Shown in pieces: positions 9,367 to 63,066 of a stretch of 64,000 bases of DNA (the first letter of the stretch is position 1; every line of letters starts with the position of its first letter). The position numbers and the translations under genes were made by a program. Source of the DNA: Bartonella taylorii (GTDB lineage Bacteria; Pseudomonadota; Alphaproteobacteria; Rhizobiales; Rhizobiaceae); contig NZ_CP083693.1 of assembly GCF_023920105.1 (NCBI RefSeq), positions 265,001 to 329,000 on the forward strand. The letters run 5' to 3'. Under the pieces are notes generated by a model that was not told the origin of the DNA, made no database searches, and saw only the letters and a program-made list of their open reading frames with translations.

Positions 9367-10096
9367 TACTCTTTAGGGATTTAGGAATATTCTCCACATC
9401 ATTTTTTTGTTGTTTGGGTTAAAGAAAGTGCTCTATTTGATAGTCTAGATCATTTATATTTACTAGCGTTTCCTTTGACATCAAACAATAGCTAAGCGGT
9501 ATTAATAAAGGTAAAATATTCTACTCTAAATGCTTTTACAGAAAAAATCTCGGTATTATCTTTCAGGTTTTGTTCGTGATATTGCTGGGGCTAGAGCTCG
9601 CCATTACCTTTTTTGCAACAAATATTTATATAGTTTTGGTAGAAATCATAAGGATACATGAATTGTAAAGGGATTTTTGTTCCATGATAAAACCACAGTA
9701 CCTCTTGAAGATTGTTTTATTCAGTTCAAGAAAGATTTTTTGCAAGTGCTGATTTAGAGATGAGGAATATGCTTTTAAGAAGAGAGATAGAGAAAACTTC
9801 TTTATGAAAAAATAAGAAGGGATCTTGATTATTTGTGACTGTACAGAAAAAGTTTGCGAGTCTTGTAGGAAATACACAGTGAAGAGTTAATCGCGAATAT
9901 GCATTTTTTATGAGTCTGCCAATAAATCGACATAAAGATATCATGAGTACACTTCTCATGTTTTTATATCGCACGATGATTAGTTCTTATGCCTTTTGTG
10001 TGGCGATATCTGGTTGTATGTTTTTCAACACGCATTTCGTGTAATATCTATTGTAATGTGCGATGGTGTTTTTGAACTAGAAAAAGCAGGATTTCT
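9367..10096. other. Gene-poor spacer
   Basis: About 730 bp with only short overlapping minus-strand frames (9626-9974) lacking homology that I recognise. It probably holds the promoter of the amidase gene and otherwise decayed sequence. Confidence 0.5.
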
Positions 10097-37169: not shown

Positions 37170-38801
37170 ATGAACTTGAAAAGAAAAATATTGAAGGGTA
37201 GCAGCTCTTTTGTTTCTGCTGTTATTGCTTTGGGGATACTTGTGCAACAAGTTGCAGCAAAAACACCTGCCGATACCCTCGTGATGGCTTTGAATCTCGA
37301 TTCAATCGAGACTTTTGATCCTGCGCAAATCAATGAACGTTATGGCAATGAAATTGTTGCCAATATTTGTGATAATTTAATCGATTCTGCTACAGATGAT
37401 CCAGCTAAAATAGCGCCTTCTTTGGCAAAGAGTTGGGATGTTTCAAATGAGGGCGGGGGTACGGTAATTACTTTTCATTTGCGCGATGGTTTGAAGTTTA
37501 ATGATGGTCGGCCTGCTGGTGCTCATGATCTTGTTTGGGGTATGAGGCGGATTGTTAAATTGAAGTTGTCTGCAGCGGCAGTATTTAACGAATATGGAAT
37601 TACAGAACAAAATGTTGATTCTACTCTTCAAGCACCGGATGAAAAAACCGTAGTGATGAAATTTGATAAACCTTATCCAGCAGAGATAATCCTTGGACAT
37701 ATTCTTACTACTCGTGTTGCTGCTTTGCTTGATCGTGAGACAATTATGAAACACGAACAAGATGGTGATATGGGCAATCGCTATTTGGCAAGTCATGCTG
37801 CTTGTGTTGGTCCTTATCAATTAGTGAGCTGGCGTTCTGGAGAAGCAATTTTGTTGCGTGCAAGTTCCAATTATTGGGGAGAGGCAGCAAAATTGAAGCA
37901 GATTTTAATTCGTCATATTGCAGAGCCTGGCACACAACGTTTGTTGTTAGAAAAACATGATATCGATGTTGCTCGTAATGTGATGCCAGAGGATATAGCA
38001 GATCTTCAAGCAACAACAGATATTAAGATTGAAAAAGTGTTGGCGCCATCTGTGATAATGTGGGGATTTAATACGACAAATCCCATTTTTGCCAATGAAA
38101 AGGTGCGTTTGGCGATGCGCTATCTTATCGATTATGACACTATTGGAAAGACTCTTCTTAAAGATGTTGGTATTCCACGGGCAAGCTTTATTCCCATTGG
38201 TAATCTTGGGGCTTTGAATGAAAAAGAAGGGCAACCCTTTAAACTTGATCTAAAAAAAGCCAAGCAGCTTTTAACGGAAGCAGGTTATCCGAATGGTTTT
38301 CAGGCCAATATTTTAGCAGGAAAATCTCCTTATCCTTTTGCTTTGCCCATTGCTCAGTCTATCCAGGACAATGCAAAAAAAATAGGTGTGCGCTTTAAGA
38401 TTGAACATTTTGTAGGAACGCAGTTGTTTTCAAAACTTTATGCACGGGGCTTTGATACAATTTTTATGGGATGGAATAACGATTCTGCAGATCCTTATAC
38501 AATGGCTTCACGTCTTGTTTATAATCCTGATAATCGATTTGAAGCTAAAAACACAGGCTATCCTAGTTGGTGCCATGGCTATTTTGATGAAGATATGAAT
38601 AAGAAGGTAAGGGAAGCCCTGTTTCAAAAAGATCCACAGAAACGGGCACAAATGTATGCTGATTTGCAGCGTGATTTTATGCAAAAAGGACCTTATGCTT
38701 TTATTTATCAGACATATAGTATTATCACTATGACACCTGAAGTAAAAAAATGGGTGTGGAATAGTGCACCACGTATTTTTTATAATGCTATTGAAAAATA
38801 A
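37170..38801 (+). CDS. Peptide ABC transporter substrate-binding protein, copy 1
   Basis: A 543-residue periplasmic protein of the SBP_bac_5 (DppA/OppA) family. A Sec signal peptide (about 1-30, cleaved after VAA) precedes LVMALNLDSIETFDPAQ, the conserved SAKSWDVS...ITFHLRDGLKFNDG region and the late run FDTIFMGWNNDSADPY. It delivers oligopeptides, or in some Bartonella and Brucella relatives haem, to an inner-membrane permease; no permease genes are adjacent. The second copy at 39727 is roughly 85% identical by eye. Ribosome site AAAAGGAAAAG. It is followed by a hairpin at 38846-38891. Confidence 0.9.
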   Translation: MNLKRKILKGSSSFVSAVIALGILVQQVAAKTPADTLVMALNLDSIETFDPAQINERYGNEIVANICDNLIDSATDDPAKIAPSLAKSWDVSNEGGGTVITFHLRDGLKFNDGRPAGAHDLVWGMRRIVKLKLSAAAVFNEYGITEQNVDSTLQAPDEKTVVMKFDKPYPAEIILGHILTTRVAALLDRETIMKHEQDGDMGNRYLASHAACVGPYQLVSWRSGEAILLRASSNYWGEAAKLKQILIRHIAEPGTQRLLLEKHDIDVARNVMPEDIADLQATTDIKIEKVLAPSVIMWGFNTTNPIFANEKVRLAMRYLIDYDTIGKTLLKDVGIPRASFIPIGNLGALNEKEGQPFKLDLKKAKQLLTEAGYPNGFQANILAGKSPYPFALPIAQSIQDNAKKIGVRFKIEHFVGTQLFSKLYARGFDTIFMGWNNDSADPYTMASRLVYNPDNRFEAKNTGYPSWCHGYFDEDMNKKVREALFQKDPQKRAQMYADLQRDFMQKGPYAFIYQTYSIITMTPEVKKWVWNSAPRIFYNAIEK

Positions 38802-39726: not shown

Positions 39727-41358
39727 ATGAACTTGAAAAGAAAAATATTGAAGGGTAGCAGCTCTTTTGTTTCTGCTCTTATTTCCATGGGAATGTTTGT
39801 GCAACAAGTTGCAGCAAAAACGCCTGCCGATACTCTTGTGATGGCTTGGAATCTCGATGCAATAAGTACATTTGATCCTGCACAACTCAATGACCGTTAT
39901 GGAACTGAAATTGTTGTCAATGTTTGTGATAATTTAGTTGAATCCGCTAAAGATGATGCAACTAAAATGGTTCCTTCTTTGGCAAAGAGTTGGGATGTTT
40001 TAAGTGATGATCAGAGCACGGTAATTACTTTTCATTTGCGTGATGGTTTAAAGTTTAATGATGGTCGTCCTGCTGGTGCTCATGATCTTGTTTGGGGTAT
40101 GAGGCGGGTTGTTAAACTGAAGATGTCTAATGCTCCTACATTTAATGAATATGGTATCACAGAACAGAATGTTGATGAGGCCTTTCAAGCACCGGATGAA
40201 AAAACCGTAGTGATGAAATTTGATAAACCTTATCCAGCAGAACTTATTCTTAGCAATATTTCTACTAACCGTACTGTTGCTTTGCTGGATCGTGAGACAC
40301 TTATAAAACATGAACAAGATGGTGATATGGGAAACCGGTATTTGGCTAGCCATTCTGCTTGTGTTGGTCCTTATCAGATAAGTAGCTGGCGTCCTGGAGA
40401 AGCCCTTTTGTTGCATGCAAGTCCTAACTATTGGGGAGAAGCACCTAAATTGAAGAAGATTTTAATTCGCCATGTCGCGGAGCCTGGAACACAACGTTTA
40501 TTGTTGCAAAAACACGATATCGATGTTGCACGTAATTTGATGCCAGAGGATGTAGCAGATCTCCAAGCAACAACAGATATTAAAGTTGAAAGAGTGTTGG
40601 CGCCTTCCATGATCATATGGGGCTTTAATGCGACAAATTCTATTTTTGCCAATGAAAAGGTGCGTTTGGCGATGCGCTATCTTATTGATTATGAAGGACT
40701 TGGTAAGACCCTTCTTAAAGATGTTGGTGTTCCACGTGCAAGTTTTATTCCTCTTGGTAATTTTGGAGCTTTGGATGAAAAAGAAGGGCAACCCTTTAAA
40801 CTTGATCTTCAAAAGGCAAAGCAGCTTTTAACGGAAGCAGGTTATCCGAATGGTTTTGAGGCCAATATTTTTGCAGGTGCATCTCCTTATCCTTTTGCTT
40901 TGCCCATTGCTCAGTCCCTTCAAGACAATGCAAAAAAAATTGGCGTGCGTTTTAAAATTGAACGTTTTGTAGGTACGCAGTTGTTTTCAAAATTTTATGC
41001 ACGAGGTTTTGATACGATTTTTTTCGGATGGAATAATGGCTCTGGTGATCCCCATACAATGGCTTCACGTCTTATTTACAATCCTGATAATCGGTATGAG
41101 GCAAAAAATACAGGCTATGCTAGTTGGTGCCATGGGTATTTTGATAAAACTATGAATCAAAAGGTTCAGGATGCGTTGTTTGAAAAAGATCCACAAAAAC
41201 GGGCGCAAATGTATGCTGATTTGCAGCGTGAATTTATGCAAAAAGGACCTTATGCTTTTATCTATCAGACATATAATATTGTTGCTATGACACCTAATGT
41301 CAAAAAATGGGTTTGGAATAGTGCACCACATATTTTTTATAGTGCAATTGAAAAATAA
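39727..41358 (+). CDS. Peptide ABC transporter substrate-binding protein, copy 2
   Basis: A 543-residue paralogue of the gene at 37170, with identical length, signal peptide and ribosome site. Differences are spread through the protein, for example LDAISTFDPAQLNDRYG instead of LDSIETFDPAQINERYG, and NGSGDPH for NDSADPY near the C-terminus. The ligand pocket may therefore have diverged. No stop or frameshift is present in either copy, so both are probably functional. Confidence 0.9.
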   Translation: MNLKRKILKGSSSFVSALISMGMFVQQVAAKTPADTLVMAWNLDAISTFDPAQLNDRYGTEIVVNVCDNLVESAKDDATKMVPSLAKSWDVLSDDQSTVITFHLRDGLKFNDGRPAGAHDLVWGMRRVVKLKMSNAPTFNEYGITEQNVDEAFQAPDEKTVVMKFDKPYPAELILSNISTNRTVALLDRETLIKHEQDGDMGNRYLASHSACVGPYQISSWRPGEALLLHASPNYWGEAPKLKKILIRHVAEPGTQRLLLQKHDIDVARNLMPEDVADLQATTDIKVERVLAPSMIIWGFNATNSIFANEKVRLAMRYLIDYEGLGKTLLKDVGVPRASFIPLGNFGALDEKEGQPFKLDLQKAKQLLTEAGYPNGFEANIFAGASPYPFALPIAQSLQDNAKKIGVRFKIERFVGTQLFSKFYARGFDTIFFGWNNGSGDPHTMASRLIYNPDNRYEAKNTGYASWCHGYFDKTMNQKVQDALFEKDPQKRAQMYADLQREFMQKGPYAFIYQTYNIVAMTPNVKKWVWNSAPHIFYSAIEK

Positions 41359-47539: not shown

Positions 47540-49130
47540 TTATTGTTTTATGCTGTTGTTTTTAACCAAAGGATGCCATTCATACCGTCTATCAGGACGC
47601 CGACCTAATTCATTCCCCTCTATAGGAAATTCACGAATATAGTTACAACGATATAAAAGCTCTAAAGCTTGCTTAACGGCTCCATTGTCTTTTAAAGACC
47701 TCCAACACCGTCTATAGATATCTCTTGCCGTAAAAACATTGGGTAAATGATCACAGCGCTCTACAATTAATTTTGCACGCTCTTCTGTTAATGTATCATT
47801 CGCCGCATAAAGACGTTTTGCATGACTTATCAAATATTTTTCCCAATACAAGGCTCTTTCAAGGGCATCTCTATTGATTTCAAAACGCCCCCCTTCACTC
47901 AATTCAAAAATCAATGCAAGGGTTGGTATGGTTTTATTCATTTTCAAAAGATGCGCTTGTAAACTTGATGAGAAATGACCTCCTTTGATTGTTCTTTGAA
48001 AATTTTCCCACCATTCACGAAACATTTCTTGAGCTTCAGCAGAAAAACGTATGGTAATAGGGTGTTTTGGTGATCCTAATGGTTTATCATAAAGAGAACG
48101 AAAAATCCTTTGATAACTTTCCCATGCCTTTTGATTGGGAGGTCTATCAACCCATAACCGCTCTTGTCGCTCATCGGGCCACACCAGCATTTGAAAGCGT
48201 TGCAATAAGCCGTCATTATTTGTTCCATGGTGCATTGCTTGAATGAGTGGAATAATGCGTGAAGGTTGAATGCCTCCAATTATGGATAAAGTGACATGAG
48301 GGATAAAAATGGTTCCACGCCCTATACGGTCATAGGTAAATTGATCATCTCCATTAAAAGCTGTTAGATAAAAAGCACGGTCTGATTGATATTCCTTACG
48401 TTCCAAATCGGATAAAAAACCAGATAATTCATCACGAACCAACAATAAACCACGGGGGTTTTCTTTTAACAATTCCCCAAGCTTTTCGACGGTCACATCG
48501 TTGACAATAAGACGTCGTTTATTAAGCGTGTCATCTTCCTCACTTTCTTTATATTCAAGAGATTGAGAAAGAAGAGCAAGGGCTTGTTCCTCGTCTTGAT
48601 CTTTGAGTGCTTTGTAGGCTTGTTTTTTCTTTTCTCTTTTGTCTAATTCAATAAGAATATCTTTTGTTTCTTGCTGTTTTTTCTTCTTTTCCTCTTGAAA
48701 AACATCGAGAGGTGCTAAAGCAGCTTCCATGGTATCTGTTTTCATAGTTGAAGGTTCCCCCACAATGGCACCCCAGAGATTAGGAACAATTTTCCAATTG
48801 GCATGTTGTTTTGGAGCAACCCGCACGCCATTGCCAATGACAGCAGCCAAACCACAGAGAGCAGAGACAGCAATAAAATCCATTGGAGCTTGTTGACGCT
48901 CTGAAACGTCATAAATATAGTTCATGAATGACATTGGCAGCTGTAATGGATTAAAAGGCTCGACGGGTAAAAGAAGCTGTAGCAATCGGTTTTAATTGCC
49001 CCCAACCATTTTGTTGCAAGGCTTGTTCATAAGGAATGGCTTTTAAACAAGTATTATCGTTTAAAGAGGCATTATCGTTATCATTGACGGGGGTATTTTC
49101 ATTATTGTGTTGTAAATGACTATCTTTCAT
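47540..49130 (-). pseudogene. DUF3987-type phage/satellite replication protein, frameshifted start (copy 1)
   Basis: The main frame (48985-47540, 481 residues) is a DUF3987 protein. It has a P-loop-like run GEPSTMKTD near residue 77, a Lys/Glu-rich coiled coil (about 98-155), LLVRDELSGFLSDLE and FMLVWPDERQ-type downstream motifs (here QMLVWPDERQERLW), and a winged-helix-like C-terminus. Its natural N-terminus lies in another frame, starting MKDSHLQHNNENTP at 49130. It is joined by a one-base frameshift near 48980, where IATASFTRR... should run into LLPVEPFNP. The same break is in copy 2. Such proteins sit beside primases in phage satellites. Confidence 0.7.
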
Positions 49131-50023
49131 AGTTCCCTCTTTTGAGAAAGTAATACGTTATTAAAATCGGCTCCTTTTGGAGCTTGCATGATAAAGACTT
49201 CAAAGCCTTGGCTATAAGCACGTGCAGCTAGGGTAAAACCTGCTTTACGCCCCGCATCATCCCCATCCATTGCAATGGTGAGACGGGATTTAGTATCGGG
49301 TAAATTCACACGCATCATGCCACTGGTTGAAAGGGACGCCCAAATTAATGGGCTCTGATAACAACCCAGATAGCAGAGCCAGACCGGTTTCAATGCCCTC
49401 ACAAATGACCAGATGTTTGGGATTGGCTTGACTTAAATGCACCGCGCCACCCGTTACAGATCCCAACATGGCTTTTTCTGGTTTTTGGTCTGTTTTGCAG
49501 CCATTGTCTTTTAAAAAGGTTCTATGAATGGCAAAAGAGCCAGCACCCTTAACAAGAGCGACCAACGCGAGTAGCGTAATCCCTAAAGGGTGTGGACATT
49601 TGCTATGAAAGCATAAATCAGTAGGCAAATCACATGTATACCCCGCATACGTAAATAGGTTTCTGCTAAAGTATTTTTGATTGGTTTGCTTTGTAGCCAA
49701 ATTGCTTTTGCTCTCTCTGCTTTCTGTTTTGCTCGTTTGAGATCAGTACAAAACTGTTTTGAGAAAGAGAGCGTCTGATTATAAGCTTTATCAAAAAAGG
49801 CTTGTTTTCCAAGCAAGCCAATTCTAATGAGTGCTTGTATGATCTCTCTAAAAGAGCAGCCAGCATAACAAGTGAGTAAAAGACGCCCATCATGTCCATT
49901 GGCAAGGGATAAGCTAGGTAGCCTATCATCATGAGCAGGACAACAGGCTATCCCATAATATCCATGCCAAACACCACGTAAGGCACGTGTAATATCCTGC
50001 GCATTCTTAAAAGAACACATCAT
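49127..50023 (-). pseudogene. Primase/TOPRIM protein broken in two places (copy 1)
   Basis: Three overlapping frames make one P4-type DNA primase. The N-terminal zinc-finger part (50023-49583) has CCPAHDDRLPSLSL and LLTCYAGCSF. The middle frame (to 49290) includes HLVICEGIETGLALLSGL. The last frame (49402-49127) has the TOPRIM run LTIAMDGDDAGRKAG. Frameshifts lie near 49640-49680 (RMRGIH/YTCDLPTD) and near 49330 (LLSEPINLG/ASLSTSGMMR). Its stop overlaps the start of the DUF3987 frame. Identical damage is in copy 2. Confidence 0.75.
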
Positions 50024-50024
50024 T

Positions 50025-50219
50025 TTAAATCCTATAACGTTGCTGTTTTGCTTTCTCGATTACATTGATAAGATCCGATTGTAACCAACGCGATAAGAAA
50101 CCAAATTTTAGAGGTTTGGGGAGAGAGCCATTGGTTACATGACGTCGGAATGTTGAGACACTCATATGAAGCAATTTTGCACTTTCACGGTCTGTCAAAA
50201 GAATATCATTTTCTGTCAT
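50025..50219 (-). CDS. AlpA-like helix-turn-helix regulator (copy 1)
   Basis: A 64-residue protein starting MTENDILLTDRESAKLL, six bases after an AAAGGA site. The winged helix-turn-helix pattern LLHMSVSTFRRHVTNGSLP is that of AlpA/excisionase proteins, which control excision of P4-like islands. It lies between the primase and integrase genes and is intact in both copies. An in-frame ATG 19 codons earlier is less likely. Confidence 0.78.
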   Translation of the reverse strand: MTENDILLTDRESAKLLHMSVSTFRRHVTNGSLPKPLKFGFLSRWLQSDLINVIEKAKQQRYRI

Positions 50220-50426
50220 ACTAAAATCCTTTCTATCAAAAAATGAGAACAAATCATAACTATTTATTAACCACATTTTGGTTCATTTTTGAAGGTATTT
50301 TAATCATAGAAAACAATATATTATTATAGTTTTTCTAATGTGATAATTTATGAATCTTATTGAGAAAGAATGAGAGAAAAGAGAGCTAAAGTTATCCACA
50401 GATAATGGGGTTATTCACCCCATATC

Positions 50427-51588
50427 TTAAGATTGACCTGTAACATATGCCGCCCATTTATCCATATAGACACGGCGCTGTTCTAGATAGTCAGTGCGAC
50501 GATAGGCACGTTCTACTTTACCGCCTACTGTATGACTGAGAATAGTTTCAGCGACCTCATAGGGGGCATCGGTTGTTTCAGCAAGCCAATTGCGTAAACT
50601 AGAGCGAAAACCATGGGGGCAGGTTTCAAGTCCAATACGTTTCATATATTGTAACATATTACCCTCACCAAGGGGCCCCCGACCGCTTGCAGAAAAGAAA
50701 AAATCACTGCGAGACAGCAAGCGTGCTTGTTTTAAGATTTCTAATGCTTCAGATGATAAGGGCACGCGAAATTCTGTTGTAGCATCCCGCTTTCCTTTCA
50801 TATTCTCAGCAGGGATGATCCATAGATCACCCTCAACCTGATCTTTATGGATATGACGCAAAGGACGTGTGCGAACGCCTGTCAAAATAAGCAAACGTAA
50901 TGCCAGTTGTGTGAGGGTTGATGCTTCGCAAAGTGTTTTATAAAAATCGGGAACATCTCTCCAATCCATTGCAGGTAAATTTTGTGTTTTATGGAGTTGT
51001 TTTCCTAAGAGCGCGCGTGCTTTTGTTGTTGTTTGTAAATCAACATCCAAACCCAAGGCAGCCGCATGTTTGAGACAAATATTGAGACGGGTAAGAGCTC
51101 TATTAGCTGTTGCGGCTTTTGTATGCCAAATAGGAGCAATAACATTGCGTATTTCTGTTTGCGTAATCTAACGGGTAAACACCCTAATTTAGGGAGAATA
51201 TGAAGTTGTAAAGGCGAAAACCAACGCCCATCTTTACCATCTCCTTTTAATTCAGCTTTACGGCTTTCAAAAGCATCTAAAGCAATGTCTTTTAAATAAT
51301 GGAGATTGCTTATTGCTTCACGCTTTTGTTTCTCACGTTCTTTAATAGGATCACGACCTTCGTGCAAAACAGAACGCCATTGGTTTGCCAATTCACGGGC
51401 TTTTTTTAAAGAAACGTTTCTTAAGGTACCCAACCCATTTCACGGCGCCGCCCATGAATGGTATAACGATAAAGCCATTGAGCACCACCATCTTTACGCT
51501 TATGAAGAAGCAAGCCGGCACCATCATTATATTTTCCAGCCCCCAATGTTGCGACAGCCCTTGCATTAAGGCGGTTCATAAGAGCCAT
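50427..51588 (-). pseudogene. P4-type tyrosine integrase with two frameshifts (copy 1)
   Basis: Start MALMNRLNARAVATLGAGK at 51588; the first part ends at a stop near 51421. The second frame (51433-51005) continues TLRNVSLKKARELANQW. The third (51056-50427, 209 residues) is the catalytic domain. Frameshifts lie near 51425 (REMGWVP* versus GLGTLRN) and near 51165 (LPVRLRKQK versus TQTEIRNVI). Catalytic residues are present: Arg in GVRTRPLRH, His-x-x-Arg in PHGFRSS, His in LSHTVGG, Tyr in RRTDYLEQRR. Copy 2 has the same lesions. Confidence 0.82.
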
Positions 51589-51602
51589 TTTTAGTCCTTT
51601 CT

Positions 51603-52143
51603 TGTATAAATTTTATCTACACACCAGCCCCGCTTTTGACGTGCAAGCAAGTGATATGAATTGATTCAACATAAACAGGTTTGGAATGAAAGAATCTTGC
51701 GTTATTCGAGGGTCTAATTCAATATGAATAATGCTAGATTATCATTATAAATCAATATGATTGTATCTTTAATAAGAAATAAAAGTTTGTATTTTGGCGT
51801 CGAGTAGAACCTCTTTTAAAAGTAATTTCACCGCAAGTAGTATTTCACAAAATTACAATTAAAACAGAAAAATAATTGAAAAATTTTTCTTCTGAGAAGC
51901 TGATTTACGCAACAACTATTCTTTATTTCAGCCCAAAAAAACCTTTTTAAAATTACTTGATAAAGCAGAGCATTGCATATTTCTTATTGCGATTGAAGTG
52001 AAATAGCCATTGAAATCAGGAATAATACTTTTTGAATGAACTTACTAATTAAAATGGAAATTAGCTGAGCACAAGAGTTTTTCGATTTATACCGGTATAG
52101 GCCAATTTGTTTTCCAAACTGAATATTGCGTATTACAGTTAAA
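51603..52143. other. Integrase leader and spacer before the RiPP operon
   Basis: The first ~120 bases are a diverged counterpart of the leader upstream of integrase copy 2 (GATTCAACATAAACAGGTTTGGAATGA and similar). The remaining ~420 bases are very A+T-rich, with no gene seen. Confidence 0.5.
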
Positions 52144-52172: not shown

Positions 52173-52224
52173 TCAATGCCTTGAATATAAATAAGGTACA
52201 TAATAACAATATGAGGAGGATATT

Positions 52225-52314
52225 ATGTCATATAAAAAACCGCAGGTGATTGGCACTGTGAATAGTGCAACCTTAACTTGTTATAAACCATTGGTGCGAG
52301 ATAGAAAAAAATAA
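52225..52314 (+). CDS. Putative RiPP precursor peptide, 29 residues
   Basis: ATG at 52225 follows a very strong AGGAGG site at five bases. The peptide begins MSYKKPQVIGTVNSATL, has a single Cys at position 19 (TLTCYKP) and ends in a basic tail, LVRDRKK. Two Tyr-Lys pairs (Y3-K4 and Y20-K21) frame the central hydrophilic part. It is too short for most gene finders. It is followed by a strong hairpin and then a PqqD-fused radical SAM gene, an arrangement that strongly suggests a ribosomally made and modified peptide. The start YKKPQVIG recalls leader sequences recognised by PqqD-type domains. The modified residues are unknown. Confidence 0.78.
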   Translation: MSYKKPQVIGTVNSATLTCYKPLVRDRKK

Positions 52315-52321
52315 AAAAGCA

Positions 52322-52349
52322 GGATAAGGGCGCTGCTGCGCCCTTATCC
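52322..52349 (+). terminator. Attenuator-like hairpin after the precursor gene
   Basis: A perfect 12-bp stem (GGATAAGGGCGC/GCGCCCTTATCC) with a 4-base loop, seven bases after the precursor stop, followed by a short T-rich run (ATTGTATTATT). It probably gives abundant short precursor mRNA with partial read-through into the modifying enzymes. Confidence 0.8.
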
Positions 52350-52382
52350 ATTGTATTATTAAGAAACAATTTAGGAGGGGGG

Positions 52383-53621
52383 ATGTTTCGTATTAATCTC
52401 GACGAGAATAGCATAACTAGATTAAATGATTTTCAGACTATTGTGCTTAATGATTCAGCTATATTTTTAATTGATTCAGTTTTTTTACAAAATCAGAAAA
52501 TTGAAACTGTTGCGGCAAAGCTTAATGTAGAGAAAGAGATTTTAGCATCAGATTTTTCAATCTTGTTAAGAGAACTAGAAAAGAATGGTTTTCTTTTAAA
52601 GAAGGGAAACTTGATTAGTGCGTCAGATTCGATTTTTGATCTTAAAAAATTATGGGTACCTGTAACACCTATTATACATATTATCCAGAATTGCAATAGC
52701 CCTTGTATCATGTGCGATTGCTGGAAAATTAAGGAAAAAAATTGGCATACTCCAGAAAGTTTAATACCCTTATTTAGAATGTTGAAAGAAAAAGGAGCTG
52801 CCTCAGTGATGCTTTCTGGGGGAGAACCTTTAATGCATCCGAAGCTTAAAGATATTTTATTAACGTTGAATGAACTAGGTCTGCCTGTTGAATTAAATAC
52901 CAATGGCATCTTATTGCATAAAAATTTATGGATTTCACAGTATGACATAAAAGAAATTGTTATTTCTATGGATTCGACTAGTGTCCAAGGATATTATGAT
53001 ATACGGGGGGCGAATAAATTTGATCGCGTGTGGAAAAACATTGAAACAGTTAAGAATCTTCAACCTCTGCAAAGTATAGGAATAAGAGCGACAGTTACCA
53101 AAGAGATTCTAGAAAATATTATTAATTTTATCGATTTTTGTATAAGCAAAGATGTCGATTATATCGGATTCAGCCCGCTCGATACGTCGTCATTTAGTTT
53201 TTCTAGAAAAAATAATACAAAGGATCGATCTAAGGCTTTAAGAAACAAAATTCTTCCGCCAAACGCCTCACTTTTTCATTTGAGAGATGAATTATCAAGG
53301 AAAGAATCCCCCCTCCAGATTTATATAGATAAAAAGTTCCAAGAAAGGAAAATCTCATGGACGTCACAAAATTTTGTAAATTGTATTAATTATTACTTAG
53401 GCGAGAATTCTACATACGTTTCGTCGCCGTTAATGTGTTTATTTCCATTTTCATCCTTGGTATTGGACTATAATGGAGATTTAAAAAATTGCTTTTATTC
53501 AGAAGCTTTTGGGAATCTACAAAATTATGAGGCAATAGATTGGTCTGCTCAAAGCGTTTTAAAATCTTTGAAAGAATCTGGCGCATGTAGCGGATGTCGT
53601 GGGAAGGTATTTTGTGGATAA
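52383..53621 (+). CDS. Radical SAM peptide-modifying enzyme with N-terminal PqqD-like domain
   Basis: A 412-residue protein. Residues 1-80 form a PqqD-like recognition domain (LNDSAIFLIDSVFLQ... LLRELEKNGFLL) expected to bind the leader peptide. The radical SAM core follows: the CX3CX2C cluster motif at Cys104, Cys108 and Cys111, and GGEP at 146-149. The C-terminal part is SPASM/twitch-like, with Cys352, Cys370, Cys402, Cys405 and Cys411 available for an auxiliary Fe-S cluster. The layout matches PqqE- and sactipeptide-type maturases that form carbon-carbon or thioether cross-links in peptides. The ATG follows GGAGGGG. The stop overlaps the next gene by eight bases. Confidence 0.88.
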   Translation: MFRINLDENSITRLNDFQTIVLNDSAIFLIDSVFLQNQKIETVAAKLNVEKEILASDFSILLRELEKNGFLLKKGNLISASDSIFDLKKLWVPVTPIIHIIQNCNSPCIMCDCWKIKEKNWHTPESLIPLFRMLKEKGAASVMLSGGEPLMHPKLKDILLTLNELGLPVELNTNGILLHKNLWISQYDIKEIVISMDSTSVQGYYDIRGANKFDRVWKNIETVKNLQPLQSIGIRATVTKEILENIINFIDFCISKDVDYIGFSPLDTSSFSFSRKNNTKDRSKALRNKILPPNASLFHLRDELSRKESPLQIYIDKKFQERKISWTSQNFVNCINYYLGENSTYVSSPLMCLFPFSSLVLDYNGDLKNCFYSEAFGNLQNYEAIDWSAQSVLKSLKESGACSGCRGKVFCG

Positions 53622-55398
53622 GGTTAAGCAATTTAAGATTTATAGTGTTAGCAAGTCTACTGCTCTAGTGGTTGCTGTTTTACCACTTTTTTTGTCGGAA
53701 AAATTGCATTTGTCGCAAGCGGATATTGTTTTAATCGGTAGTTATTTTTTATTGCTTCCTTTGATCTTAGAAGTCCCCTTGGGTTTATTATCAGATGTTT
53801 ATGGAAGTAAGCGCGTTATTTATACTGGGCTGTTTTTCTTTCTTTGCGGTTTTTTAGCTCTTTTTATGAATTATGCATATTTTGCTTACGCCACTTATTT
53901 GTTATGTATTACATTAGCAGCCGCTTGTTTCTCAGGTGCGGAAGATAGTTTACTCTTTTCTGTAGTACCAAAGCATCGCACACTGTTTTCCGTTAAGTCC
54001 GAAGTGGCTGCTGTTACCTATAGTGTGACAACGGTACTTATTTTTTTAGGGGGAATACTTTATTATGTGCATCCTGCATTGCCTGTGATTTTTCAAGTCC
54101 TTTCATTAATTTTTGCTATTTTTATGTTTTCAAAACTGACAAAGGGATTAGATAGTTTTCATATCAACGCTCATCCGAATATTTTCACAGTTATGTGCGC
54201 CAGCCGTAAAGAAGTCAAAAATCCTTATCGCTTCACTCTTATTTTTTTAAGTGCAGTTTCAGCTTTTGCTATTTTGGTTAATAATCGAACTGTTTCTATC
54301 GCATTTTCTGATTTTTTGCCATTTCAACCTGCTATTTTGGTTTCGATTATTTTTATCATTGGGAATTTTTTTTCAGCAAGTTCCAATATATTGTTTCAGA
54401 AGTATTTTTCAAAGTTTCAAAATCCTATTTTTCCCGTCTTAATGATTGGTTGTATGGTAACCATTGCTTTTTTTCTCATGTCATTTCAAATCATTGCGGC
54501 TCTTATATTAGGATTTTTACTGCTATGTGTTTTTAAATCTGTTTATCGATCTTATCTGTCGTCTCTTCTTATAAATTCACTGATTGATCCCAAAGCTATC
54601 GCGACTGTTTTATCATTTACAGCCATTATTACAGCTGTTGTATCCTTTGCATTCAGTTTTTTATACGGTCATGTTTTTTCAACGTTCTGGCAAGCTAATT
54701 TGTGGTTGTCAGTGATTATGGCTGTGATTTTTGGGGTGTCTGCTTTAATTATTTTTGTCAGAAAACAAGAAATCATTTGGTTACAGCCTGAAAATGCACA
54801 ATCGTCAAAACAACATTTCTTGAAACGCAAGCATCAAGAGTTTTGCTATGGGCAAATTTATCCGGAAGCATCGTGCATTAATGAAAACATCAAGGATGGC
54901 TCTTTTCGACAAAGTCTCTATCCTGCACCAAATTTGATAACACTTTGCGATGAAGTAGTCGAATGGGAGTTTATCCGGGGTACTGTATTGAGCCAAATGG
55001 ATTTGCTACATCAAAAGACGATTATTGATCAAATCAATAAGATTTTTCAAGATCGATTAAGCAAGAATATAATCTTATCACATGGAGATTTACATCCTGA
55101 TAATATCATTGTTACTCCTGATAGTTCTTTTATGGTAGTGGATTGGGATTTATGTCAAGAAGCCAGTCCGGAATTGGATATCTTAACATTTTTCACCAGT
55201 CCAAGATTATCTCTCAATTTAGAAGAACGGATAGACTATATTTCTCATTTGCTGTCTATATCAAAGGATGAAGCTTTACCAATGATAAAAGCGTTTGTGG
55301 CTAAAAAAATTTCTGATCTTTGTCTATACCAAAATATTTTCATGAAACAATTAGTATTGGATTATATGAACTTGAATAAGAAATTTCATGGGCGATAA
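53614..55398 (+). CDS. MFS exporter fused to an aminoglycoside/choline-kinase-fold domain
   Basis: A 594-residue fusion. Residues 1-385 are a 12-helix MFS transporter, with LLSDVYGSKRVIY as the loop 2-3 signature near residue 60. Residues about 405-594 carry the phosphotransferase (APH) fold end: the Brenner motif HGDLHPDN at 490-497 and the metal-site run VVDWDLC with Asp510 and Asp512. The N-terminal nucleotide-binding lobe of the kinase is short or missing, so activity is uncertain. GTG start at 53614 after GGAAGG; a GTG five codons upstream is the alternative. It overlaps genes on both sides. Export plus phosphorylation could give self-protection or a maturation step; both are inference. 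Confidence 0.82.
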   Translation: MDKVKQFKIYSVSKSTALVVAVLPLFLSEKLHLSQADIVLIGSYFLLLPLILEVPLGLLSDVYGSKRVIYTGLFFFLCGFLALFMNYAYFAYATYLLCITLAAACFSGAEDSLLFSVVPKHRTLFSVKSEVAAVTYSVTTVLIFLGGILYYVHPALPVIFQVLSLIFAIFMFSKLTKGLDSFHINAHPNIFTVMCASRKEVKNPYRFTLIFLSAVSAFAILVNNRTVSIAFSDFLPFQPAILVSIIFIIGNFFSASSNILFQKYFSKFQNPIFPVLMIGCMVTIAFFLMSFQIIAALILGFLLLCVFKSVYRSYLSSLLINSLIDPKAIATVLSFTAIITAVVSFAFSFLYGHVFSTFWQANLWLSVIMAVIFGVSALIIFVRKQEIIWLQPENAQSSKQHFLKRKHQEFCYGQIYPEASCINENIKDGSFRQSLYPAPNLITLCDEVVEWEFIRGTVLSQMDLLHQKTIIDQINKIFQDRLSKNIILSHGDLHPDNIIVTPDSSFMVVDWDLCQEASPELDILTFFTSPRLSLNLEERIDYISHLLSISKDEALPMIKAFVAKKISDLCLYQNIFMKQLVLDYMNLNKKFHGR

Positions 55399-56002
55399 TA
55401 TTGTAATTTGTAATAAAAATTGCAGTGCGGGCTGCAATCATTGTCCGTATTCGATGGAATGTATGGTGAGAGATGACGCGTTGCCTGAATCTTTATATAC
55501 AATAAATGACATAAAATCTGATTTTATTATTCTTTCTGGTGGAGAGCCTTTTGAGCTCGATTATGATTTACTTCATAAATATACTTGTATGTGTCTCATT
55601 TGTAAAAAATATTTTCGGATTGCCACAGGGGGGCATATCTATATTCAACCATATTTGAAGCTATTAAAGAGTAATCCGTTCTTTTTAGGGATACAAATAG
55701 GCACAGATGTTATTTCAGAGATAAGAAATCTAGACAGTAAAAAATATAAACAAAAGTGGGTGCGTAACATAGAATGTATGAAAAAATATAGCGTACCATA
55801 TAGTGTGACGATTACTTTATCGGAGAGATTCGATTTGGCAGAAGTGTTAGCTCTAATATGTATCGCTGCTCCCGAGTTCATTTTAGTTAATTTTGAAAAT
55901 AGAAAAAAGTACGAGAATACATTTCAGTTAAATATGATACGGGATTTTTTTTCTGGCTGTGAGATAAAATATGGATATACGCATCAGAGTTTACACCAAT
56001 AA
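55388..56002 (+). CDS. Small second radical SAM protein
   Basis: A 204-residue protein with the cluster motif CSAGCNHC (Cys12, Cys16, Cys19) directly at the N-terminus and the SAM-site motif LSGGEPF (GGEP at 51-54). The TIM-barrel half continues to about residue 170, with TDVISEIRNLDSKKY in the middle. It is much shorter than the first radical SAM enzyme and has no SPASM or PqqD domain, resembling minimal activase-type or partner rSAM proteins. Its ATG lies inside the last codons of the MFS-kinase gene. Composition is visibly A+T-richer than neighbouring chromosomal genes. Confidence 0.8.
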   Translation: MGDNIVICNKNCSAGCNHCPYSMECMVRDDALPESLYTINDIKSDFIILSGGEPFELDYDLLHKYTCMCLICKKYFRIATGGHIYIQPYLKLLKSNPFFLGIQIGTDVISEIRNLDSKKYKQKWVRNIECMKKYSVPYSVTITLSERFDLAEVLALICIAAPEFILVNFENRKKYENTFQLNMIRDFFSGCEIKYGYTHQSLHQ

Positions 56003-56963
56003 ATATAAATTATCGGATTCTTTTCATAGTTCTTCTGGTGTGTTAGTTGAAAAAACAGAACTGATAATTTTATTTACTGTTCGGGATAAAGTTATTTCGC
56101 CCTTTGCTATGGAGTTGCCATTGTCACCTAGTCACGGAGAAATGCCGGACGATTTTATAAAATCTGTAAATGAAAGATCAATAAATAAAAGTAAACACTT
56201 TTCAAATTCTTTAAGCTATTTCTTTGGGTTGGAAGATTTTTTTAAAAAAGTTGAAATGGCTAAAATTATTAATTCTGGATTAATAAAATCTATTAAAACG
56301 ATAGGAATAGGTGAAATTATTGATGATGAGATACGTAATTACGATTTGATAAAATTGAAATCATCGAATCAGTATTTGGATGATACAATTGCAATTGTTA
56401 ATGAAAACAAAAATGTAAAATTTATTATTGATTTCAATGCAAGTATTAATTTTGAGCAGTGGAATTATTTTATTGATAGGATAGATAAGAATAATTTGTT
56501 TGGAATAGAACAGCCTATGAAATTTCCTTCAAAAATTCCAGATTTGGGTTTCTTAAATATCGCTGATGAGACATTTGTGAAATGTGGTTATGAAAAAATT
56601 CACGAATATGGCTATAATGCTTTTGTCTATAAGCCATTTGCAAGTAATATTAAAGAATTATATAAGTGTTTTGAGAATAAAAATAACTACGTTGGTATGG
56701 TTGGAAGTAATGTTTCTGGCCCTTTAGATTGTAGTTTTTGTAACATCATAAATCATTATATGCCTACCAAATTAGCAGGAAATCGTGCAAGTAATTTTGA
56801 AGCGCATCCGTTAAATAATAAAACTGAGGATTTAATGAGAATTCGAGAAAAAAAGATATATCTCTCTGATGAATTGTTTATTTATCTTGATAAATTTTGC
56901 CGAAAGGTATCGGATTTGTATTTTGATATGAATAAATTAAAAGAAATTGCTACAAATATATAG
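55971..56963 (+). CDS. Enolase-superfamily enzyme, dipeptide epimerase-like
   Basis: A 330-residue protein. The barrel shows the full acid-base and metal set of the muconate-lactonizing/dipeptide-epimerase subgroup: KLK (128-130), Asp154 in IIDFNA, Glu180 in GIEQP, Asp199 in IADET, and Lys221 in YKPF. The N-terminal capping domain is diverged and the C-terminus is short. Enzymes of this set abstract an alpha proton, so they epimerise or cyclise carboxylates such as dipeptides. It overlaps the small rSAM gene by 32 bases and is the last gene of the operon. An epimerisation step on a peptide product is inferred. Confidence 0.78.
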   Translation: MDIRIRVYTNKYKLSDSFHSSSGVLVEKTELIILFTVRDKVISPFAMELPLSPSHGEMPDDFIKSVNERSINKSKHFSNSLSYFFGLEDFFKKVEMAKIINSGLIKSIKTIGIGEIIDDEIRNYDLIKLKSSNQYLDDTIAIVNENKNVKFIIDFNASINFEQWNYFIDRIDKNNLFGIEQPMKFPSKIPDLGFLNIADETFVKCGYEKIHEYGYNAFVYKPFASNIKELYKCFENKNNYVGMVGSNVSGPLDCSFCNIINHYMPTKLAGNRASNFEAHPLNNKTEDLMRIREKKIYLSDELFIYLDKFCRKVSDLYFDMNKLKEIATNI

Positions 56964-57842: not shown

Positions 57843-59383
57843 GTAGTCCTATGATTTTTCACCAAAGTGGGCTATTCATAGCGTTTTGTAGGCCGACTGC
57901 CTTTTGGTTTTTTTGTCTTCATAAATTTCATGAAGATAGTTGCAACAGCATAAAAGCTCTAAAGTTTGTTGAATAATTCCTTTATCCTTTAAAAGCTTCC
58001 AATCACGCTTATAAACATCTCGTGCAGCTAAAACCATCTGGTAAATGATCACAAGGCTCTACAATGAGTTTTGCATGACTTATCAAATATTTTTCCCAAT
58101 ACAAGGCTCTTTCAAGGGCATCTCTATTGATTTCAAAACGCCCCCCTTCACTCAATTCAAAAATCAATGCAAGGGTTGGTATGGTTTTATTCATTTTCAA
58201 AAGATGCGCTTGTAAACTTGATGAGAAATGACCTCCTTTGATTGTTCTTTGAAAATTTTCCCACCATTCACGAAACATTTCTTGAGCTTCAGCAGAAAAA
58301 CGTATGGTAATAGGGTGTTTTGGTGATCCTAATGGTTTATCATAAAGAGAACGAAAAATCCTTTGATAACTTTCCCATGCCTTTTGATTGGGAGGTCTAT
58401 CAACCCATAACCGCTCTTGTCGCTCATCGGGCCACACCAGCATTTGAAAGCGTTGCAATAAGCCGTCATTATTTGTTCCATGGTGCATTGCTTGAATGAG
58501 TGGAATAATGCGTGAAGGTTGAATGCCTCCAATTATGGATAAAGTGACATGAGGGATAAAAATGGTTCCACGCCCTATACGGTCATAGGTAAATTGATCA
58601 TCTCCATTAAAAGCTGTTAGATAAAAAGCACGGTCTGATTGATATTCCTTACGTTCCAAATCGGATAAAAAACCAGATAATTCATCACGAACCAACAATA
58701 AACCACGGGGGTTTTCTTTTAACAATTCCCCAAGCTTTTCGACGGTCACATCGTTGACAATAAGACGTCGTTTATTAAGCGTGTCATCTTCCTCACTTTC
58801 TTTATATTCAAGAGATTGAGAAAGAAGAGCAAGGGCTTGTTCCTCGTCTTGATCTTTGAGTGCTTTGTAGGCTTGTTTTTTCTTTTCTCTTTTGTCTAAT
58901 TCAATAAGAATATCTTTTGTTTCTTGCTGTTTTTTCTTCTTTTCCTCTTGAAAAACATCGAGAGGTGCTAAAGCAGCTTCCATGGTATCTGTTTTCATAG
59001 TTGAAGGTTCCCCCACAATGGCACCCCAGAGATTAGGAACAATTTTCCAATTGGCATGTTGTTTTGGAGCAACCCGCACGCCATTGCCAATGACAGCAGC
59101 CAAACCACAGAGAGCAGAGACAGCAATAAAATCCATTGGAGCTTGTTGACGCTCTGAAACGTCATAAATATAGTTCATGAATGACATTGGCAGCTGTAAT
59201 GGATTAAAAGGCTCGACGGGTAAAAGAAGCTGTAGCAATCGGTTTTAATTGCCCCCAACCATTTTGTTGCAAGGCTTGTTCATAAGGAATGGCTTTTAAA
59301 CAAGTATTATCGTTTAAAGAGGCATTATCGTTATCATTGACGGGGGTATTTTCATTATTGTGTTGTAAATGACTATCTTTCAT
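57843..59383 (-). pseudogene. DUF3987-type replication protein, broken (copy 2)
   Basis: Second copy of the gene at 47540. Residues 1-395 of the main frame (59238 onward) are the same as copy 1, including the shared frameshift near 59235. At the C-terminus it differs: a 14-residue segment is missing after LISHAK, the tail reads KLIVEPCDHLPDGF, and then the frame shifts; the out-of-frame remainder ARDVYKRDWKLLKDKGIIQQ is a diverged version of the copy 1 tail. So the copies differ here but not upstream. Confidence 0.7.
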
Positions 59384-60276
59384 AGTTCCCTCTTTTGAGA
59401 AAGTAATACGTTATTAAAATCGGCTCCTTTTGGAGCTTGCATGATAAAGACTTCAAAGCCTTGGCTATAAGCACGTGCAGCTAGGGTAAAACCTGCTTTA
59501 CGCCCCGCATCATCCCCATCCATTGCAATGGTGAGACGGGATTTAGTATCGGGTAAATTCACACGCATCATGCCACTGGTTGAAAGGGACGCCCAAATTA
59601 ATGGGCTCTGATAACAACCCAGATAGCAGAGCCAGACCGGTTTCAATGCCCTCACAAATGACCAGATGTTTGGGATTGGCTTGACTTAAATGCACCGCGC
59701 CACCCGTTACAGATCCCAACATGGCTTTTTCTGGTTTTTGGTCTGTTTTGCAGCCATTGTCTTTTAAAAAGGTTCTATGAATGGCAAAAGAGCCAGCACC
59801 CTTAACAAGAGCGACCAACGCGAGTAGCGTAATCCCTAAAGGGTGTGGACATTTGCTATGAAAGCATAAATCAGTAGGCAAATCACATGTATACCCCGCA
59901 TACGTAAATAGGTTTCTGCTAAAGTATTTTTGATTGGTTTGCTTTGTAGCCAAATTGCTTTTGCTCTCTCTGCTTTCTGTTTTGCTCGTTTGAGATCAGT
60001 ACAAAACTGTTTTGAGAAAGAGAGCGTCTGATTATAAGCTTTATCAAAAAAGGCTTGTTTTCCAAGCAAGCCAATTCTAATGAGTGCTTGTATGATCTCT
60101 CTAAAAGAGCAGCCAGCATAACAAGTGAGTAAAAGACGCCCATCATGTCCATTGGCAAGGGATAAGCTAGGTAGCCTATCATCATGAGCAGGACAACAGG
60201 CTATCCCATAATATCCATGCCAAACACCACGTAAGGCACGTGTAATATCCTGCGCATTCTTAAAAGAACACATCAT
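59380..60276 (-). pseudogene. Primase/TOPRIM protein broken in two places (copy 2)
   Basis: Same three frames and same frameshifts as the gene at 49127 (zinc finger with CCPAHDD, HLVICEGIETG, then AMDGDDAGRK). Shared damage shows that the lesions came before duplication or homogenisation. Confidence 0.75.
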
Positions 60277-60277
60277 T

Positions 60278-60472
60278 TTAAATCCTATAACGTTGCTGTT
60301 TTGCTTTCTCGATTACATTGATAAGATCCGATTGTAACCAACGCGATAAGAAACCAAATTTTAGAGGTTTGGGGAGAGAGCCATTGGTTACATGACGTCG
60401 GAATGTTGAGACACTCATATGAAGCAATTTTGCACTTTCACGGTCTGTCAAAAGAATATCATTTTCTGTCAT
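60278..60472 (-). CDS. AlpA-like helix-turn-helix regulator (copy 2)
   Basis: Identical to the 64-residue regulator at 50025, with the same AAAGGA site and start MTENDILL. With the integrases broken, this and its twin are the only undamaged genes of the repeated block. Confidence 0.78.
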   Translation of the reverse strand: MTENDILLTDRESAKLLHMSVSTFRRHVTNGSLPKPLKFGFLSRWLQSDLINVIEKAKQQRYRI

Positions 60473-60679
60473 ACTAAAATCCTTTCTATCAAAAAATGAG
60501 AACAAATCATAACTATTTATTAACCACATTTTGGTTCATTTTTGAAGGTATTTTAATCATAGAAAACAATATATTATTATAGTTTTTCTAATGTGATAAT
60601 TTATGAATCTTATTGAGAAAGAATGAGAGAAAAGAGAGCTAAAGTTATCCACAGATAATGGGGTTATTCACCCCATATC

Positions 60680-61841
60680 TTAAGATTGACCTGTAACATA
60701 TGCCGCCCATTTATCCATATAGACACGGCGCTGTTCTAGATAGTCAGTGCGACGATAGGCACGTTCTACTTTACCGCCTACTGTATGACTGAGAATAGTT
60801 TCAGCGACCTCATAGGGGGCATCGGTTGTTTCAGCAAGCCAATTGCGTAAACTAGAGCGAAAACCATGGGGGCAGGTTTCAAGTCCAATACGTTTCATAT
60901 ATTGTAACATATTACCCTCACCAAGGGGCCCCCGACCGCTTGCAGAAAAGAAAAAATCACTGCGAGACAGCAAGCGTGCTTGTTTTAAGATTTCTAATGC
61001 TTCAGATGATAAGGGCACGCGAAATTCTGTTGTAGCATCCCGCTTTCCTTTCATATTCTCAGCAGGGATGATCCATAGATCACCCTCAACCTGATCTTTA
61101 TGGATATGACGCAAAGGACGTGTGCGAACGCCTGTCAAAATAAGCAAACGTAATGCCAGTTGTGTGAGGGTTGATGCTTCGCAAAGTGTTTTATAAAAAT
61201 CGGGAACATCTCTCCAATCCATTGCAGGTAAATTTTGTGTTTTATGGAGTTGTTTTCCTAAGAGCGCGCGTGCTTTTGTTGTTGTTTGTAAATCAACATC
61301 CAAACCCAAGGCAGCCGCATGTTTGAGACAAATATTGAGACGGGTAAGAGCTCTATTAGCTGTTGCGGCTTTTGTATGCCAAATAGGAGCAATAACATTG
61401 CGTATTTCTGTTTGCGTAATCTAACGGGTAAACACCCTAATTTAGGGAGAATATGAAGTTGTAAAGGCGAAAACCAACGCCCATCTTTACCATCTCCTTT
61501 TAATTCAGCTTTACGGCTTTCAAAAGCATCTAAAGCAATGTCTTTTAAATAATGGAGATTGCTTATTGCTTCACGCTTTTGTTTCTCACGTTCTTTAATA
61601 GGATCACGACCTTCGTGCAAAACAGAACGCCATTGGTTTGCCAATTCACGGGCTTTTTTTAAAGAAACGTTTCTTAAGGTACCCAACCCATTTCACGGCG
61701 CCGCCCATGAATGGTATAACGATAAAGCCATTGAGCACCACCATCTTTACGCTTATGAAGAAGCAAGCCGGCACCATCATTATATTTTCCAGCCCCCAAT
61801 GTTGCGACAGCCCTTGCATTAAGGCGGTTCATAAGAGCCAT
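60680..61841 (-). pseudogene. P4-type tyrosine integrase with two frameshifts (copy 2)
   Basis: Same three-part integrase as the copy at 50427, starting at 61841. Upstream (61842-61950) lies the leader with CACGCTAATCCTGCTTGTAA, the sequence also found near 19099. The tRNA-Met gene, a typical target for such integrases, lies ~1.1 kb beyond the integrase start. Confidence 0.82.
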
Positions 61842-62015
61842 TTTTAGTCCTTTCTTATACAAATTTGATCCACACGCTAATCCTGCTTGTAACGTGCAAA
61901 TGAGTGGTTTTGATTGATGCAACATAAACAGATTTGAAATGAGAGAATCTTAGGATATTCGGGTCTCTCATTCAATATGCAAAACAGTGAATTATCTTTA
62001 TAAATCAAAGTGTTG

Positions 62016-62989: not shown

Positions 62990-63066
62990 TGGTAGCGGAG
63001 GAGGGATTTGAACCCCCGACACAAGGATTATGATTCCTCTGCTCTAACCTACTGAGCTACTCCGCC
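62990..63066 (-). tRNA. tRNA-Met (elongator, anticodon CAU)
   Basis: A 77-base cloverleaf including CCA. Acceptor GGCGGAG, D-stem GCTC/GAGC, anticodon stem GAGGA/TCCTT with loop ATCATAA giving CAT, T-loop TTCAAAT. The sequence is the alphaproteobacterial elongator tRNA-Met type; it lacks the initiator features. Confidence 0.93.

Follow-up and report, generated by a model that had tools for sequence, protein, structure and literature searches.

What does a five-gene operon of Bartonella taylorii make, and why do related loci in the genus keep one of its genes while the others decay? We addressed this question in a window of 64,000 nucleotides (the whole stretch of DNA that was analysed, positions 265,001 to 329,000 of contig NZ_CP083693.1), from a host genome that is one contig of 1.94 Mb. 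The operon lies at 52225..56963 of the window and consists of five frames on the plus strand, the last three each overlapping the preceding gene; its G+C content is 32.4%, against 37.7% for the whole window. Judging from sequence comparison, we consider it likely that this cassette represents a new family of radical S-adenosylmethionine (SAM) pathways for ribosomally synthesised and post-translationally modified peptides (RiPPs). It would turn a Thr-Cys-(Tyr/Phe) core (TC[Y/F]) into a small, probably epimerised antibacterial product, against which an exporter-kinase would provide immunity.

The first gene (52225..52314) follows a strong ribosome site (GAGGAGG) and encodes a precursor peptide of 29 residues, with a YKKP leader, Thr-Cys-Tyr near the C-terminus and a Lys-rich tail. 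A 12-bp hairpin on the same strand (52322..52349, fold z -3.97) separates it from the maturase gene rSAM1 (52383..53621), whose 412-residue product has a PqqD-like N-terminus, a radical-SAM core (C104-x3-C108-x2-C111) and SPASM-like C-terminal cysteines. Next comes the proposed immunity gene, an MFS-APH fusion that we call the exporter-kinase (53599..55398; 599 residues, GTG start), with the motifs HGDLHPDN and DWD and a short N-lobe. The minimal radical-SAM protein rSAM2 (55388..56002; 204 residues) carries C12-x3-C16-x2-C19, GGEP and FRIATGG, and the last gene (55971..56963) encodes an enolase-superfamily protein of 330 residues with the catalytic lysines K130 and K221 and the metal-ligand motifs DFN (154-156) and EQP (180-182). 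A first-pass annotation of this DNA had described a 29-residue peptide gene, a hairpin, two radical-SAM genes, an MFS-APH fusion and an enolase-type gene in this order, and each was found where it had been placed.

Is the short frame a genuine precursor? A frame carrying TC[Y/F] occurs within 300 nt upstream of rSAM1 in all seven non-streptococcal loci, the window included. The motif was first noticed in the frames of the window, Vibrio and Roseibium, and was then present in all four further non-streptococcal loci. As a chance control, we made 1500 dinucleotide shuffles per locus of the upstream 300 nt, and such a frame appeared in 7 to 22 of 1500 per locus (9 for the window, 17-22 for each of the four later loci). 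Eight aligned precursor rows, two of them from Bartonella, have M, T and C in common, with Y or F after the C. Lengths range from 23 to 33 residues across the family, a YxKP leader is present in four of the seven precursor lineages, and a basic tail in most (none in the Chlamydiae locus L044). Because Thr, Cys and the following aromatic are the only residues besides Met1 kept in every precursor, the first bond would most likely be made there. Six other Bartonella loci retain the precursor, with 10 silent and 2 replacement codon differences across them. The cassette has, as a RiPP pathway should, a short conserved precursor beside its maturase, and this maturase is at the family level a radical-SAM protein with a PqqD-like RiPP recognition element (RRE). 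In the two streptococcal loci, a TTCF peptide of 29 residues is encoded on the opposite strand just past rgg, and its frame has a good ribosome site. Both of their operons start with a hydrophobic peptide, which resembles a short hydrophobic peptide (SHP) and faces an Rgg gene (RGG_Cterm 1e-40).

The hairpin is also a common feature. None of 200 shuffles was as stable as that of the window, and a stable hairpin lies between precursor and rSAM1 in the seven non-streptococcal loci that were folded (7/7; z from -2.9 to -6.4), with no evident common sequence. It is probably an attenuator or a stability element, and its conserved position fits, as expected, a device holding precursor output above that of the enzyme.

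How far does this gene set extend beyond Bartonella? We aligned rSAM1 with one distant relative, derived short exact patterns and scanned genome contigs once. This gave 51 pattern matches, 16 of which encode rSAM1 relatives: eight in Bartonella and eight elsewhere, at 35-48% identity. The latter span four phyla (Pseudomonadota, Bacillota, Chlamydiota and Actinomycetota) and come from Vibrio sp. Isolate32 (L038), an uncultured Roseibium (L041), Streptococcus sciuri and S. castoreus (L042, L043), two Chlamydiae metagenome-assembled genomes (MAGs; L044, L046), a Candidatus Ancillula MAG (L045) and Nicoletella semolina (L047). In Roseibium and Vibrio the complete set follows the order of the window; S. 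sciuri and S. castoreus also keep that order for rSAM1, the exporter-kinase, rSAM2 and an enolase-like gene that is shorter. The Chlamydiae locus L046 has rSAM1, rSAM2, a methyltransferase, an enolase and a GNAT gene, with MFS and kinase as separate genes, and the contig of L044 ends inside rSAM1. Of the eight loci, six have both rSAM2 and an enolase-like gene, and seven have MFS and kinase. Since it recurs in other phyla, the gene set is above chance. The first-pass annotation had proposed an undescribed candidate RiPP pathway, and these data support it: beyond Bartonella, homologous operons carry a short upstream frame with a common motif, and the genes co-occur elsewhere.

GNAT genes adjoin two of the eight outside loci. 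An acetyltransferase of this family adjoins the Vibrio operon (L038, 10484-11068), and the methyltransferase and GNAT genes of L046 lie inside the Chlamydiae operon (7909-10275); these are possibly tailoring or immunity enzymes.

The cassette is compact and rare. Of 118 Streptococcus genomes two had rSAM2, as did two of 100 Chlamydiota (the second, G974, in a different setting) and one of 65 Vibrio genomes; rSAM1 was found in 1 of 61 Pasteurellaceae, all counts including the centre genome. Even samples returned only the window's own genome for the enolase (385 genomes of the class) and for rSAM2 and the exporter-kinase (398 genomes of the phylum); rSAM1 in an even sample of 299 genomes of the phylum gave its own genome only, besides one distant radical-SAM protein (L031). 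Viral contigs held no relatives of the single rSAM1, enolase and exporter-kinase proteins or of the rSAM1 alignment, and one partial match to the rSAM2 alignment (37% over 55 residues). The plasmid collection had no match for the enolase, rSAM2 and exporter-kinase proteins of the window, nor, at 1e-20, for the rSAM1 of Roseibium, nor for the streptococcal rSAM2; the rSAM1 of the window matched 45 records at the level of distant radical-SAM proteins, all below 60% identity (best 30 of 45 listed). Ten distant radical-SAM matches were found in the phage collection. The true spread is probably wider than found, the scan having used short exact patterns. A separate Chlamydiota locus (G974; L057 7352-10124, minus strand) has an rSAM2 relative (E 7.4e-37) after a TP_methylase-family gene (1.1e-9) and a gene for an ABC-type ATPase, with a short frame and its ribosome site upstream, and is possibly another RiPP-like cluster.

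What would the two radical-SAM proteins do? rSAM1 matches Pfam Radical_SAM with an E-value of 2.1e-16. Among proteins of solved structure, the one closest to it is the streptide maturase SuiB (5v1q, 6e-10, alignment from residue 14). The first-pass annotation had called it a PqqD-rSAM-SPASM protein, which holds in part. The PqqD domain was not detected in single rSAM1 proteins from the window, Nicoletella, the streptococci or Ancillula, but when the aligned N-termini of the family were compared with Pfam PqqD, four of nine members matched at E <= 1: two cleared the cut-off (4.9e-14, 2.1e-7) and two were near 0.03. The full SPASM motif has seven cysteines (CX9-15GX4C - CX2CX5CX3C - C). In rSAM1, five C-terminal cysteines are spaced like its first part (C352-x12-G-x4-C370, C402-x2-C405-x5-C411), the last two are missing, and the chain stops one residue after C411, so this part of the description holds as SPASM-like, not as a full SPASM domain. 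Pfam SPASM was matched by two of nine family members (E 0.038 and 0.12). Given the spacing of the five cysteines, rSAM1 likely bears at least one auxiliary cluster. An extra cysteine lies two residues beyond those of the core (CDCW). rSAM2 matches Pfam Radical_SAM at 1.5e-6, 0.6 bits under the Pfam cut-off, and its family retains two or three cluster cysteines, GGEP and FRxATGG. Among solved structures the nearest to it, though a weak match, is the peptide epimerase YydG (0.0018).

Some of these similarities point elsewhere. rSAM1 scores 2.6e-16 with the PADLOC viperin model, and AgnC7, encoded on pAgK84, aligns with two thirds of it at 24% identity (E 5e-14). Hence rSAM1 might be a prokaryotic viperin or an AgnC7-like enzyme of nucleotide-antibiotic synthesis, as for agrocin 84, and the 29-residue frame would then be a chance occurrence. 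We give this next to no credence: both alignments cover the generic radical-SAM core and begin near residue 98, past the PqqD-like part, while the recurrence of the short TC[Y/F] frame in 7/7 non-streptococcal loci argues against chance. Viperin itself was rejected, as rSAM1 reaches 48.5 bits with the NCBIfam viperin model, whose cut-off is 180.

Could an enolase-type enzyme act on such a peptide? The first-pass annotation had assigned this protein to the enolase superfamily. The single window sequence is weak evidence (MR_MLE_C 0.21, DgcA 0.0018), and the family profile is clear, matching PDB 3iji at 8.7e-7 and the L-Ala-D/L-Glu epimerase 1jpd at 2.5e-4, which upholds the assignment. K130, D154, N156, E180-Q-P and K221 are invariant in all eight enolase-like proteins, and the third metal-ligand motif (ADE, 198-200) varies; identity outside Bartonella is only 17-31%. 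With strands placed by the alignment to 3iji, the lysines fall on strands 2 and 6 and the metal ligands on strands 3-5, as in the two-lysine (MLE-type) subgroup, which bears a KxK motif on strand 2. Two lysines flank the substrate alpha-carbon in L-Ala-D/L-Glu epimerases and carry out a two-base proton transfer, according to one study (PMC5808125). By alignment, K130 and K221 match those two lysines. Dipeptide epimerases are marked by a DxD motif, which holds the amino group of the dipeptide. There is no DxD anywhere in the window protein, which therefore falls outside the dipeptide epimerases proper and should have a substrate different from theirs. Enolase-superfamily enzymes require a carboxylate beside the acidic C-H, and the protein should therefore act after proteolysis has freed a C-terminus.

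The fate of the exporter-kinase in Bartonella suggests what the product may be. The fusion matches Pfam MFS_1 (3.7e-14) and APH (2.3e-6) or EcKL (2.8e-7), and the residues that an APH-like kinase has in its catalytic loop (HxDxxxxN) and DxD-type metal site (H495, D497, N502, D515, D517) are invariant in 7/7 aligned fusions, the streptococcal copies reading HEDLHPGN. It is present in 16 of 71 Bartonella species genomes, and all 15 non-window loci were examined. The gene is intact in 15 of the 16 loci, the broken one being that of G807 (L030); its start differs in L024, L027 and L029, where frames of 602-605 residues remain. All five genes are intact in only two loci, the window and Bartonella sp. 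CM31XJBT (L008). In B. grahamii (L006) the single defect is a one-base length difference in a T tract of rSAM1. Elsewhere, frameshifts and deletions account for the loss of rSAM2, the enolase, the precursor or portions of rSAM1, singly or combined; L020, for example, retains precursor and rSAM1 without most of rSAM2 and the enolase. In the alignable sequence of the 15 non-window loci, we counted 2 disruptions in 26,380 bp of exporter-kinase, both of them in L030; the other four genes have 46 in 26,861 bp. When each common event is counted once, the numbers are 2 and 33 (binomial p 3.8e-8, locus relatedness being otherwise uncorrected). As this gene is retained while the others decay, we read it as a gene for self-immunity. 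The simplest reading is that the exporter-kinase guards against the product and is kept by Bartonella species that have ceased to produce it. The first-pass annotation had the kinase shape the end product; its persistence in loci where other genes are broken is a better fit to self-protection.

Some details of the decay are worth recording. Deletions in L019, L023 and L025 (and in L024 and L027) take the precursor and the start of rSAM1 and spare the sequence ahead of the precursor, up to about 52223-52234, which is thereby brought nearer to the intact exporter-kinase. The rSAM1 T tract near 52474-52480 shows a one-base length change in L006, L007, L021 and L022, and a G tract of rSAM2 near 55628 is shorter in L007 and L029 and longer in L024, L026, L027 and L028. 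These tract changes may be either decay hot spots or phase variation.

Might the gene have been retained for an unrelated efflux or resistance function, the cassette in Bartonella having become a functionless, decaying passenger on a mobile element? The setting would suit such a history. The operon lies between two direct repeats (47815-51755 and 58068-62008) of 3,941 bp, 99.1% identical and with a spacing of 10,253, which contain DUF3987/Toprim primase-type genes together with an integrase gene divided between two frames. The scarcity of complete loci also agrees with it, and the dN/dS comparison described below is neutral on retention. On the other side, the exporter-kinase has 0 disruptions in 24,724 retained bp over 14 non-window loci (the broken one excluded), against the 46 of the other genes over 15 loci, and relatives in other phyla pair it with biosynthetic genes. 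We consider a passenger of this kind improbable. The settings of the Bartonella loci vary, some adjoining primase-integrase modules and others lying in sites common to species pairs or groups. A tRNA-Met gene lies at 62990-63066, but a search of the window for an exact 15-base repeat of its end, as a possible attachment site, gave no match. Elsewhere in the window, two adjacent genes for 543-residue SBP_bac_5 solute-binding proteins (37170-38801 and 39727-41358) form an apparent tandem duplication.

Gene content, motifs and retention together suggest a route from recognition, bond formation, excision and epimerisation to toxicity and immunity. The PqqD-like domain of rSAM1 would bind the leader, and the enzyme would act on the TC[Y/F] core by oxidising it or by forming a new bond; rSAM2 would add a second radical change. 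Host proteases would release a short product, there being no protease among the cassette genes. The enolase-type enzyme would then move an alpha-proton, most likely epimerising the residue beside the free carboxylate. The exporter-kinase would pump the product out and phosphorylate what remains inside. The product itself would most likely be antibacterial and aimed at competitors. A bolder version, which we hold only tentatively and would put at somewhat worse than even, is a ribosomal route to a tripeptide-sized antibiotic of the nonribosomal-peptide kind, where the two radical-SAM enzymes rebuild Thr-Cys-(Tyr/Phe), the enolase-type epimerase sets a D centre after excision and the exporter-kinase is a portable immunity gene, spreading and persisting without producer genes.

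A toxin is not the only product that one could imagine. The PqqD-like domain and short precursor resemble systems of the pyrroloquinoline quinone (PQQ) type, and both PQQ and mycofactocin are cofactors. Rgg control in the streptococci suits signals as well as toxins, and the conserved Cys could bind a metal. The product could thus be a small cofactor, metallophore or signal, and the exporter-kinase could be kept for uptake or use of what neighbours make. Yet an APH-type kinase joined to an exporter, with GNAT genes beside two outside loci, is commoner in self-protection, and a patchy, mobile-looking spread with decaying biosynthesis would be unusual for a cofactor. We therefore regard this possibility as unlikely, though less so than a passenger cassette.

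Several observations weigh against an immunity-bearing RiPP family as we propose it. For the exporter-kinase, the dN/dS ratio (replacement over silent substitution rates) came to 0.26 when 15 loci were compared and 0.27 for the nine with most decay, but a 286-nt remnant of rSAM1 had 0.24 in eight of those nine, such that dN/dS does not separate the two. The streptococcal precursor was found by a motif-directed search, on the opposite strand, and shuffles of the searched stretch gave matches in 58 and 44 of 500. The streptococcal and Ancillula enolase-like proteins (L042, L043, L045), at 17-21% identity, were assigned by position and shared motifs, and the one streptococcal protein scanned singly had no Pfam match. 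In Ancillula the window order is preserved, but rSAM1 is interrupted, rSAM2 lacks the third cysteine and the enolase-like frame is short. For Nicoletella, frames for rSAM1, MFS and kinase are present, and its genome gave no rSAM2 match; its enolase was not found at the fetched locus, the only place where it was looked for.

If the proposed pathway is correct, radical-SAM chemistry on a peptide and enolate-type proton transfer act on one substrate, a pair that we have not found together in print. The three-residue core is pinpointed, and the gene set, spread over four phyla, is ready for heterologous expression. The genus also offers a clear case of a probable immunity gene outlasting the producer genes, which bears on competition among host-restricted bacteria. 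No NCBIfam model matched the window proteins at its cut-off, among the matches listed (best 25 of 57 for rSAM1), and routine annotation would therefore miss the pathway.

How does the cassette compare with known systems? Among the matches listed in open-access full text (most subscription papers lie outside this scope), there was no description of this gene set; for the enolase superfamily or dipeptide epimerases in RiPP work, the matches listed were reviews and the MslH structure, and for radical-SAM RiPPs in Bartonella the one match was a honeybee-gut paper. We found no RiPP pathway with an enolase-type epimerase in this literature. The agrocin 84 plasmid pAgK84 carries agnC7, among the best plasmid E-values for rSAM1 in the matches listed, and combines an antibiotic with resistance genes; no precursor peptide, enolase or exporter-kinase is annotated in the 16.8-kb stretch viewed. 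The nearest characterised relatives of the enolase-like protein, 1jpd and 3iji, share its two lysines, whereas the window protein lacks DxD and sits in a RiPP operon.

The radical-SAM RiPPs of streptococci (RaS-RiPPs), of the streptide type (SuiB) and controlled by Rgg, are alike in that an RRE-type radical-SAM/SPASM-like maturase acts on a short precursor and, for the streptococcal members of our family, in an SHP-like peptide at the operon. An Rgg regulator beside the operon is a feature of other RaS-RiPPs in the sections available of a 2026 review (PMC13361665), and the streptococcal members of our family share it; TC[Y/F], compared as TTCF, is absent from the core motifs of the 16 streptococcal RaS-RiPP subfamilies given in those sections. 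Unlike RaS-RiPPs, the cassette has a second small radical-SAM protein, an enolase-type enzyme and an exporter-kinase, and its spread reaches far beyond streptococci.

The PQQ and mycofactocin pathways use a very short precursor and a PqqD-like domain with a radical-SAM/SPASM enzyme. The cassette resembles them in both respects, making a small product plausible, and differs in its core, TC[Y/F] instead of E-Y or V-Y. It also differs in enzymes, as no relatives of PqqB/C/F or MftD-F were seen among the five genes, which instead include the enolase-type enzyme and the exporter-kinase. As a RiPP family, the cassette has an unusual enzyme set and is a new family within a known kind.

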